Below are positions 11,800 through 23,151 of a DNA stretch of 24,644 nt, piece by piece. The stretch's first letter is position 1. Every line of letters starts with the position of its first letter. The notes under the pieces are model-generated. The model was given only the letters and a program-made list of their open reading frames with translations. It did not search any database and was not told the origin of the DNA. A program made the position numbers and the translations under genes. Source of the DNA: a virus; IMG/VR virus record IMGVR_UViG_3300004806_000093, positions 1 through 24,644 of that record; one strand, written 5' to 3'.

Positions 11800-13337
11800 T
11801 TAAGCTGCAACTCGGCAAGCGAGTTCTGGATACAAAGGAGCCCAGCCGTACAGTACGTCAACACGAGTTGGAATAGAGTCATTGTTAATGGTGTATTGAC
11901 GAACTACACGCATTGACAGACCAATTTCCTTGTCGGAAGCACGACCAGCGAAATGAACACCTTCAGGCAACTCTAAGTCAGCCATAGCCATTGTGAACGC
12001 ATTGCGATGCATTACGATGTTTTGTGGAGAAACTACGCCATTACCGCTTGCATTGTATTGTGATGCAAAGAATGTCACAGCAGCAGTTGCTGATGGGCTA
12101 GGGATGCTTACGTTTTGGAACTGACCGCCAGAGATAACTGCTGGAGATACTGTTACTGAAACGCTTGAACCTGAAGCAACTGAAACAGCAGACTTAACTA
12201 CGAATGAACGCAATTTGTTTGTGCCGTAAGCTTGACGATTTTGTGGGTTAACTGCATACACACCAGCAATTTGGAATGTATCACCAGCGTTCAAGTTGAT
12301 TGTGCCTGTATTAGCAGCAGTCAAAGTGATTGTGGATTGTGAAGCCCAACCAGAAGTCAAGAAACCAGTAGCAGTAGTTGTAGCTACAGAAGCAGTTACT
12401 GTAGAGCTAGAAAAGTTACCAAAAGTCTGTGACACGATGTTTTGGTCAAGTTTCCAGTTCATACCGCCTGAATCACGACCCATCAAGCCTTTTTCGTATT
12501 GCATACCAATCTTGTCGTTAGGAACGAAAAGACCTTTTAAGCTGTCTACGATAGTTGCTGAAGTGAACGGCTCAACGATACATGATCTACGACCATCACG
12601 AGGAGCACCTTCGGAATCGAGGTAAGCCTGAGCTGACAAGTATGTATACAAGCCAGTTGGAGGAGTACCAGCAGTACCAACAATGTTAGCTGTGTTCAAA
12701 GCAGCAGTAGTTGTGCCATCAAAGTCAATTTTGTTGGCAATAGCAGCTACGGCTGGTTTCAGGATGCGATCCGAGAACATATCCAATGACAATGCCAAAT
12801 CCTGTGTTGTGAACTGAGTGTCCACGTGGAATTGGGTTGACAAAGTAACTGGAACGCTAGTTTCGTTCAAGTCTTCTACGTTCAGGGCTGGCCCTGTAGT
12901 TCCAATAAAGCGTCCAGGCCTCATTCTGTTACTTTCACCTTTCGGCTACTGACCATCTTTCAATGGCGGTTCGAGTTCTTCGACTCAAACTCAGCGACTT
13001 CTTTAGTTATATCGCTGTTCAGACTATCGCATCTCCTTTCGGAGGCTTCTCACTTAGTCGTTCAGGCTGCTTTCGCTTGCCCCCTGTCGCCCACCTCTGG
13101 GCTTCCAAGTCAATCAGAGAAACTTTTACGTCCGCACACCTGTTCTATTTACGGACGTTAACTGTAGCGCCAATCTTGGCTCCTCAATACTACAGTTAAA
13201 CTGAGGCAGGATTAATTTACCACAGCAAATTGGTCATCATAGTTGCGGTCAACTTCTGATGTAAATGTTAATTCGTTTTCTAAAACCATCAACGCTTCGT
13301 TGGTGATTTTAGAGATAGTTAATAGCGTATTTGCCAT
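11800..13337 (-). CDS. P22-like major coat protein, split gene (three exons)
   Basis: The coat protein forms the icosahedral shell around the scaffold and portal. The gene starts at the ATG at 13337 with a GGAG ribosome site. Exon 1 (13219-13337) gives MANTLLTISK to QFAV, the typical N-terminus of P22-like coat proteins. Exon 2 (13151-13184, 34 nt) gives GAKIGATVNVR, a conserved segment. Exon 3 (11800-12921) gives RPGRFIGTTG through the C-terminus (RVDVLYGWAPLYPELA). Joining these in frame gives 424 residues, close to the 430 of P22 gp5. Between exons 2 and 3 is a group I intron. Between exons 1 and 2 is an unexplained 34-nt insert with a stop. The homology and exon 2/3 junction are well supported; removal of the small insert is inferred. 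An annotation beginning at the ATG at 12924 would miss the N-terminal 51 residues. Confidence 0.85.
12922..13150 (-). ncRNA. Group I self-splicing intron in the coat gene
   Basis: A 229-nt intron without an ORF, read on the minus strand. P1 pairs the exon end ACGTCCGT (13158-13151) with GCGGACGT (13135-13128), giving a U.G at the 5' splice site. P3 is GTTTCTC (13123-13117) with GAGAAGC (13051-13045). P4 is CTTG with CAGG, joined by GAA and GA to P5 (GCCC/GGGC). P6 is GGGC/GCCT with a GCGAAAGC cap. P7, the guanosine site, is GACTA (13059-13055) with TAGTC (13026-13022). P8 is CTCC-GAAA-GGAG. Three P9-type hairpins and a GCC-GAAA-GGT hairpin follow, and the last base is G. The guide AGGTGT (13141-13136) can pair with exon AGGCCT as P10 with one mismatch. 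Removing it joins VNVR to RPGR in frame. The size is like the compact bacterial tRNA introns. Confidence 0.9.
13158..13199. repeat. 10-base perfect inverted repeat across insert and mini-exon
   Basis: TTAACTGTAG at 13158-13167 and CTACAGTTAA at 13190-13199 are exact inverted copies with a 22-base loop. One arm lies in the 34-nt insert, the other in the coding mini-exon right beside the P1 helix of the group I intron. In RNA this would form a stable hairpin that stacks next to P1. Confidence 0.85.
13185..13218 (-). other. 34-nt second intervening sequence in the coat gene
   Basis: On the minus strand the coat frame reads FAVV and then reaches TAA at 13212-13214. A second in-frame stop (TGA, 13184-13186) sits just before GGA GCC AAG, where the coat reading resumes in another frame as GAKIG. 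Deleting exactly 34 nt restores FAVVGAKIG, matching the spacing expected of this coat family. The insert starts T|AAAT and ends TG|AGG, the same edge bases as the group I intron. It has no room for a ribozyme core. It could be a relic, an unknown splicing unit, a bypassed segment or a sequence error. Confidence 0.6.
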
Positions 13338-21796: not shown

Positions 21797-21993
21797 AACC
21801 ATTGTCCTTTGATTGTTCCTCTATTGCCTTTTCGCCATTGCTCTGCCATGTCGAACTGGATTCTATGTAGCCTAGGGGCAAACCCTGAATGAGATAAAAG
21901 TCTGCGGATTGCGCCAAGACCTTCCTTATGTCTGATGGATAGCAAATATCTAACTTCACATTGGTGTCGGTATTTTTCACTAGATTTGTCCAT
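21793..21993 (-). CDS. Small conserved phage protein (CEVRYLL type)
   Basis: This 66-residue protein starts at the ATG at 21993; a TTG at 22020 would give 75. It has RHQCEVRYLLSIRHKEGLGA, then RRLLSH, and near the end AEQWRKGNRGTIKGQW. This pattern of RH.CEVRYLL and QW.RGNRG is shared by many small phage proteins of unknown function. It overlaps the cytosine methyltransferase C-terminus by 14 bases and the next gene by 4. A competing frame (MDWEK start at 22025) has no such pattern. Confidence 0.72.
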   Translation of the reverse strand: MDKSSEKYRHQCEVRYLLSIRHKEGLGAIRRLLSHSGFAPRLHRIQFDMAEQWRKGNRGTIKGQWL

Positions 21994-23151
21994 TTTGAAC
22001 TTGTTGGATTCTTTTCCCAATCCATTTCATTACTGGAACTGCCATTGAATTTCCTAATGCTTTGTATCTTGGGCCATCAGCAGCTTTTGGGATATTGGTA
22101 TATTCGTCTGGGAAACCTTGCAATCTTTCACATTCAACTGGGGTTAATCTGCGAACTGCCATGTTTTGCATAACTTTTGGACCGCTATTTGTTGAGCTAT
22201 TTCCAGAAGCTGTCAAAGTAACCGCAATATCACCACTTTCAGATGCATTGTATGTATCAATTCCAACAGTTTTGTAGGCAATATAAGTTTGATGTTCAGT
22301 AACCGCATTACCTGGCCTACTAACTCCAGCAGTAGAAGATAGTAAAGTTGGAAAAGTATCAACACAATGAATTGGTTGCAAAACGCAATTTCCACCATTT
22401 TGTGCGCCTTGTTGCAATAACTCAGCCCCTTTAGAAAATTTAGCAGTTACTGTGTCTGCTATGTTTTTTCCAAATGCTCCAGTTGCAATCATATTGAATC
22501 CATCTGCTCTGGAATAGTCGTTACAAGTTGTTTGGATACAGTTAGCAATGCTTGGTATAGCTGATTCGGAAGTTTCTTCCCTCGTTTTTCTGCCCTTCTT
22601 AATATCCCCTGACAGGCTTTCGGACTCAAATAATACTTTTGCTGAATGTTCCCATCCTGAAGAACATCCGACAAGAAACACTCTTTTACGTCTTTGGGCC
22701 ACACCGAAGTATTGAGCATCAAGCACCCTGTAGCTCCACCCATAGCCGAGTTGGCCCAACGCTGTGAGGAAGGAAGCAAAATCTCGCCCCCCCCAGAACT
22801 AAGGACACCTGGCACGTTTTCCCAAATGCACCACTTGGGTCTAAGTTTGTCAAGAATTGCAACATAGGTAAGAGCAAGGTTTCCTCTGGGGTCATCAAGC
22901 CCTTTTCTGAGCCCTGCAATGCTGAAGGATTGGCAAGGGGTTCCCCCAACGAGTAAATCCAATCTATTTGTTCCAAAATCCCACTCCTTAAATTTAGTCA
23001 TATCCCCTAAATTTGGGGTATTTGGATAATGATGAGCAAGCACTTGACTAGGAAACTTTTCAATTTCACTAAAAGCTAATGGATTCCACCCCATTTCATG
23101 CCAGGCAACTGTTGCAGCTTCTATACCGCTACAAACGGATAAATAATTCAT
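21980..23151 (-). pseudogene. C5-cytosine DNA methyltransferase, frameshifted at a G8 run
   Basis: The N-terminal part (from the ATG at 23151) has motif I (SVCSGIEAATVAWHEMGW), the catalytic Cys in GGTPCQSFS (C73) and ENV (111-113). At eight G (22787-22794) the frame departs to a non-homologous tail. The second frame, ending at 21980, has QYFGVAQRRKRVFLVG (motif VIII), a target-recognition region, TPVECERLQGFPDEYT (IX) and RYKALGNSMAVPVMKWI (X). One extra G would join them as VLSSGGGRDFASFLTALGQL, giving about 390 residues. It may be an active phase-variable gene, a frameshifting gene or an error in the read. If active it would make 5-methylcytosine on phage or host DNA. Confidence 0.88.

Follow-up and report, generated by a model that had tools for sequence, protein, structure and literature searches.

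Group III introns of euglenid plastids are abbreviated, group II-derived introns of about 100 nt, whose splicing machinery is located elsewhere, without an adjacent donor ribozyme. The element described here would resemble them in being shortened from a self-splicing class and in using machinery outside itself, whereas their group II origin, their length and the lack of a ribozyme donor next to them set them apart. Bypass elements, i.e. the hop of phage T4 gene 60 and the mitochondrial byp elements, are short inserts interrupting a frame. The present insert also breaks a frame, but its codons are unmatched and a group I guide is present. Twin-ribozyme introns and twintrons also bring two splicing-related units close together; they are nested with a ribozyme in each part, whereas here two tandem introns appear to have one core.

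The group I introns in capsid and tail genes of mycobacteriophages, e.g. the LittleE capsid gene, are ordinary long introns of 265–819 nt (PMC3706429). These introns share with the present insert the U at the end of exon 1, the G at the end of the intron and the location in a structural gene, while the insert and its relatives have only 29–43 nt and no core. Trans-excision-splicing ribozymes recognize their substrates by P1, P9.0 and P10, with an in vitro limit of 28 nt, and the available part of PMC4094466 mentions no natural case. In these ribozymes and in spliceozymes a group I core removes a foreign segment using P1 and P10, and the 28-nt limit is near the sizes found here; they are, however, engineered and carry the guide within the ribozyme (PMC4094466), whereas the present arrangement would be natural, with the guide in the excised segment and the core located downstream in the same transcript and itself later removed.

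Here we analysed an insert of 34 nt that interrupts a coat gene of the P22 type. With good confidence it is considered a core-less, non-autonomous group-I-type mini-intron, which would borrow the core of the complete group I intron located 34 nt further on in its transcript.

Results

The window (the whole stretch of DNA that was analysed, 24,644 bases) is an IMG/VR virus record whose minus strand carries the structural genes for terminase, P22-like portal, scaffold and P22-type coat protein. The coat gene starts with ATG at 13337 and its 5' exon ends in GTG GT; on the minus strand the edges of the insert are GTG GT/AAATTAATCC...TATTG/AGGAGCC, with slashes at the boundaries (Table 1). The first-pass annotation had stated that deleting these 34 nt restores FAVVGAKIG and that the edges (U/AAAU...UG/AGG) are those of the adjacent group I intron, and both statements held. 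Intact relatives read FAVVGAKIG across the site, namely 72 zero-insert loci, MW202520 and the 5' half of MW202674. The latter two are phage records from Manatee Spring with an insert-free coat gene, MW202520 being intron-free and MW202674 carrying a related intron at a different site.

Table 1. Coordinates of the coat gene parts and of the proposed splicing elements in the window
Feature	Position	Strand	Support
Coat 5' exon (MANTLLTISK...DDQFAV-GT)	13219..13337	-	
Putative core-less mini-intron, 34 nt	13185..13218	-	
P1 5' strand: exon GCTGTGGT, ends in U of the U.G pair	13219..13226	-	
Internal guide sequence GCCTCAGT, pairs with 5' exon, one U x U mismatch	13200..13207	-	covariation
P10 guide TCCT, pairs with first 4 nt of mini-exon (AGGA, 13184-13181)	13208..13211	-	
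Px 5' strand TTAACTGTAGT, in mini-intron tail	13189..13199	-	
Px 3' strand GCTACAGTTAA, in mini-exon, directly abutting main intron P1'	13158..13168	-	
Mini-exon, 34 nt, codes (V)GAKIGATVNVR	13151..13184	-	
Main group I intron, 229 nt, predicted sole catalytic core	12922..13150	-	
Main intron helices	P1' 13157-13151/13135-13129; P3 13123-13117/13051-13045; P7 13059-13055/13026-13022	-	
Coat 3' exon (RPGRFIGTTG...), P22 coat protein family	11800..12921	-	

At the 3' end of the main intron, window positions 12945-12922 (minus strand) read GGTGAAAGTAACAGAATG, a possible ribosome-binding site and an ATG that shares the frame of the 3' exon; unspliced RNA could thus yield an N-terminally truncated coat protein. 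The DNA methyltransferase gene of the window (21980-23151, minus strand) shows a frame change near a run of eight G (~22794-22787), possibly an indel in the homopolymer.

A 25-nt piece of the insert matched seven further IMG/VR contigs with an identical insert region. The locus set was enlarged by scans for the insert edges, the main intron 3' end and a relaxed guide, and diverged forms were found in at least 43 more contigs. Inserts of 32–41 nt were thus present at the same nucleotide in at least 50 further contigs, giving 51 loci with the window, which represent 22 variants defined by flank and insert. The names of the 50 contigs other than the window contain, as counted by eye, 45 IMG dataset numbers; the contigs are not independent samples and are in many cases probably related. 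In locus L007 the upstream flank differs while the insert region is identical, which suggests recombination. The catalogue of 125 coat sites with both flanks recognised comprised 72 with zero insert, 51 with the 32–41-nt insert and two with an intron of 226/228 nt. When insert and intron were omitted, the coat frame was intact in all 45 of the 51 loci that reach the 3' exon, and the 14 nucleotide variants of the mini-exon encoded only three peptides. No mini-intron of the coat or the second family (see below) was found in cultured phages among the phage records searched, and the 10 loci from a scan of bacterial genome contigs contained ordinary introns or unrelated matches, among which inspection revealed no evident mini-intron. 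Two or three group I introns per structural gene were observed in the coat genes of L271, L267, L287, L282, L292 and L237.

The main intron started directly downstream in 51/51 mini-intron loci, 34 nt past the insert, and a complete main intron of 224–230 nt with the resumed coat frame was present in all 45 loci running far enough. Coat loci selected only by the main intron 3' end and reaching upstream carried the mini-intron in 18 of 18 cases; L277 and L291, which start inside the main intron, are outside this count. This co-occurrence could in part reflect joint inheritance of two sites only 34 nt apart. The 21 distinct main introns were aligned and folded as a group I intron using RNAalifold. 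P3 had G-C in 17 and C-G in 4 sequences, further stems covaried, and two-sided changes were detected in 19 of 54 pairs, while the P7 strands GACUA and UAGUC were invariant. P1, P3, P5/P6, P7 and the final G of group I introns were all present. The main intron of the window was unmatched by Rfam RF00028 at E up to 10, and Rfam searches with the window gave no group I match.

In L235 and L237 the mini-intron nucleotide is occupied by an intron of 226/228 nt and the downstream site is intron-free. Both introns carry the guide CCUGCC as in the mini-intron and end in AUUG/AGG; that of L235, the one tested, matched group I in Rfam with E = 0.0054, below the gathering score. The simplest history would be that the mini-intron was a full intron which lost its core.

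The 22 coat variants were then compared by their predicted pairings, which were counted by anchoring on the guide and the mini-exon because the MAFFT alignment misaligned the Px 5' strand. In all 22 variants, P1 has a U.G pair at the 5' splice site and extends to position 8 with a U x U mismatch at position 4, P10 forms between the mini-exon's first four bases and those just 5' of the guide, and the final base of the insert is G. No P9.0 pairing was identified. A further helix, Px, joins the insert tail to mini-exon positions 18–26 in the same register in 22/22 variants, with one mismatched cell (L306). The pairing stretch of the tail lies 1–2 nt after the guide, Px ends exactly where P1' of the main intron starts, and the 3' splice site is placed in its loop. 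This helix had been noticed before as a 10-base hairpin between insert and mini-exon; it exists, and is slightly longer, with 11 bp in the window.

Because most coat loci were retrieved with patterns that prescribe GTGGT..CCTGCC, the invariant pairs carry no independent weight. The covariation test was confined to three positions left free by the searches: position 6 of P1, position 4 of P10 and position 24 of Px. In each, the exon side is the third base of a codon, and the exon changes with which P1 and P10 covary are synonymous. P1 position 6 was paired in 22/22 variants (T-A 15, A-T 6, G-C 1) and is C-G in both full introns; P10 position 4 was paired in 22/22 (A-T 5, T-A 3, G-C 3, T-G 11); and Px position 24 was paired in 22/22 with all four Watson-Crick types present. 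Permuting the partners gave a mean of 12.2, 11.1 and 11.6 paired variants, respectively, and 22 was reached in 0/5000 permutations for each position, fractions which are not probabilities since the permutation ignores relatedness. L271 and L308 have three differences in the compared stretch, two of which form a compensated pair. In single coat sequences the match of P1 and P10 was marginal (shuffle fraction 0.03–0.07), and the smallest native coat Px was equalled by shuffled tails in 12% of cases. The strength of the case for the putative P1 and P10 is their covariation, not the single-sequence match. P1-Px-P1' was the minimum free energy (MFE) fold in the five variants folded (of 22), with z from -2.2 to -4.0; for the window, the MFE fold, which contains the hairpin, had z = -4.0 and 0/200 shuffles were as stable. 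In the fold of L297, a 40-nt coat variant, an extra helix was seen inside Px, in which the Lys and Ile codons of the mini-exon pair with the insert, and this helix of the 40-nt variants seems by eye to covary between variants.

The predicted mini-intron layout recurs in two major head protein families and in a portal gene, and it follows the main intron when that intron is at another site. The second family was reached by a scan for the main-intron core motif (81 loci). In this major head protein gene (phrog_1357), an insert of 29–38 nt splits FYG/TYV, and a group I intron follows 51 nt downstream. Scanning with P1' only of its main intron gave 14 loci, 13 of them in this gene and all 13 with the mini-intron, while the 14th (L421) was unrelated. 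The U.G pair of P1, the final G and at least three P10 pairs were present in 8/8 variants, and at least three P10 pairs also in 22/22 coat variants. P1 position 7 was T-A in four and C-G in four of the eight variants, and the smallest native Px was equalled by shuffled tails in 0.8% of cases. P7 of these main introns was GACUU with AAGUC (by inspection). The main introns of this gene (L341, L364, L420 and others) occur in short (~220–240 nt) and long (~750–825 nt) forms, the latter with extra sequence. In L371 the mini-intron is at the FYG/TYV site with the main intron 27 nt downstream, not 51; Px is shifted along (by eye), and P10 is ACA with UGU, a change from ACC with GGU.

The portal-gene family consists of L393, detected by the layout scan described below, and L400, detected by tblastn; no interruption is present there in the homologues L369 and L407, and the portal peptide had no match in phage records. 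The layout scan also gave an additional site in a head protein gene (L379 and L398); L344 has another one in the same gene, with a shorter Px of ~6 bp (by eye). P1 with the U.G pair was also present in L371, L400, L393, L344 and L398. In L344 the head protein gene combines one mini-intron with two introns of the ordinary kind. The cultured Tunturiibacter phage Tunturi_3 is insert-free at the L379/L398 site and codes the joined protein, with 33/33 residues; its nucleotide alignment had 82/110 matches gap-free with the insert omitted, and 12/50 downstream with the insert kept.

A blind scan for the whole layout was performed on both strands of 425 loci (6.70 Mb). It gave 62 matches at most 120 nt upstream of a core motif and 58 elsewhere, and from the rate elsewhere ~0.25 matches would be expected near the 242 motif sites; since open-frame conditions were used and the loci were enriched in coat genes, this result reflects specificity, not frequency. 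L371, L400 and L344 were missed by the scan. Among other loci, L428 and L432 (Omnitrophota MAG contigs) have a tRNA-like sequence that apparently contains a group I intron with this type of core, and in L343, L345 and L383 a group I intron is located directly at an apparent intein C-terminal end (VANNILIHNC in L383).

Discussion

Across the families the inserts have 29–43 nt, a length without room for P3 and P7, and an own core (P3–P8 with the G site of P7) is absent, so by definition the insert is not a group I intron. As judged from the pairings, the mini-intron keeps the 5' splice site with its guide (P1), the guide for the 3' exon (P10) and the terminal G, without a catalytic core, and very probably it works like a group I intron with a borrowed core. 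A core was present beside the insert in all checkable loci. The excision chemistry, the cis action of the neighbouring core and the order of the steps are what we infer from the sequence, as follows. Firstly, P1 of the mini-intron, joined through Px (a P2-like helix from the mini-intron tail to the mini-exon) stacked on P1' of the main intron, would dock in the neighbouring core. Exogenous G would attack after the U, the final G would enter the G site with P10 aligning AGGA, exon 1 would be ligated to the mini-exon and the mini-intron released; the ligated exons would read FAVVGAKIGATVNVRRPGRF. Secondly, the loss of the mini-intron would destroy Px, P1' would dock, and the main intron would excise itself.

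As the main alternative, the mini-intron might be excised in trans, by the free excised main intron or by another phage group I intron. Neither Px strand is part of the main intron, so the substrate keeps its structure once that intron has been removed and a trans reaction may occur; engineered group I ribozymes are able to excise segments in trans (PMC4094466). We regard this as unlikely, however, since Px lies 0–2 nt from the adjacent P1' in the coat and head-protein families and moves along with the main intron in L371, and the mini-intron has its own guide, which would be needless for a trans-acting ribozyme.

That the ribosome skips the insert, as in translational bypass of the phage T4 gene 60 or mitochondrial byp type, is highly improbable. 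The size range, the early in-frame stop in coat variants and the nearby hairpin are all reminiscent of bypass elements. However, the first-pass annotation had already noted that the codons do not match as in gene 60, and this was confirmed, the in-frame codon before the resumed GGN being TGA in 22/22 coat variants and never the take-off codon. Take-off and landing codons also mismatch in seven of the eight head-protein variants; in L420, the remaining one, AAG occurs at both places, yet the first stop in frame comes only after 63 nt, past the insert. Nor would bypass give a role to the covarying P1 and P10 and the final G, or account for full group I introns at the same site.

Very unlikely, and less probable even than bypass, are an assembly artefact and a relic or non-functional insertion in a phage whose coat protein comes from a second gene copy or from a variant missed by sampling. 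Many contigs are short, but identical or diverged inserts recur in 50 contigs besides the window, spread over 45 IMG dataset numbers, the frame is intact in 45/45 loci, the 14 mini-exon variants keep to three peptides, and the helices covary. Among the options of a removed, a skipped or a relic element, which had been left side by side before, removal is therefore the one supported; the mismatched landing codons argue against skipping, and the intact frame and covariation against a relic. A single long intron that uses the outermost splice sites and so skips the coat mini-exon was also considered and rejected, because phase 2 would be joined to phase 0 and GAKIGxTVNVR, kept in 72 intact loci, would be lost.

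Returning to the core-less mini-intron, we lean, with less assurance than for the single insert, towards a natural relay of two introns with one core: core-less group-I-type introns of 29–43 nt in phage structural genes, each excised by the core of the next intron, would be removed in an order set by Px, which is present only until the mini-intron leaves. They would have originated independently in several genes and, for the coat gene at least, by core loss from full introns, as the group I counterpart of group III introns. The reactions themselves would be of a known type. In the open-access papers searched, no natural core-less group I intron was found.

If this reading is true, these would be, to our knowledge, by far the smallest known group-I-type introns. 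Self-splicing introns could then shed their catalytic core and depend on a neighbour. Such a step has long been postulated on the way from self-splicing introns to a common splicing apparatus, and phages would provide the example for the group I class. A reaction of engineered ribozymes would also gain its natural form, and the structural genes of many environmental phages would be misread by gene callers.
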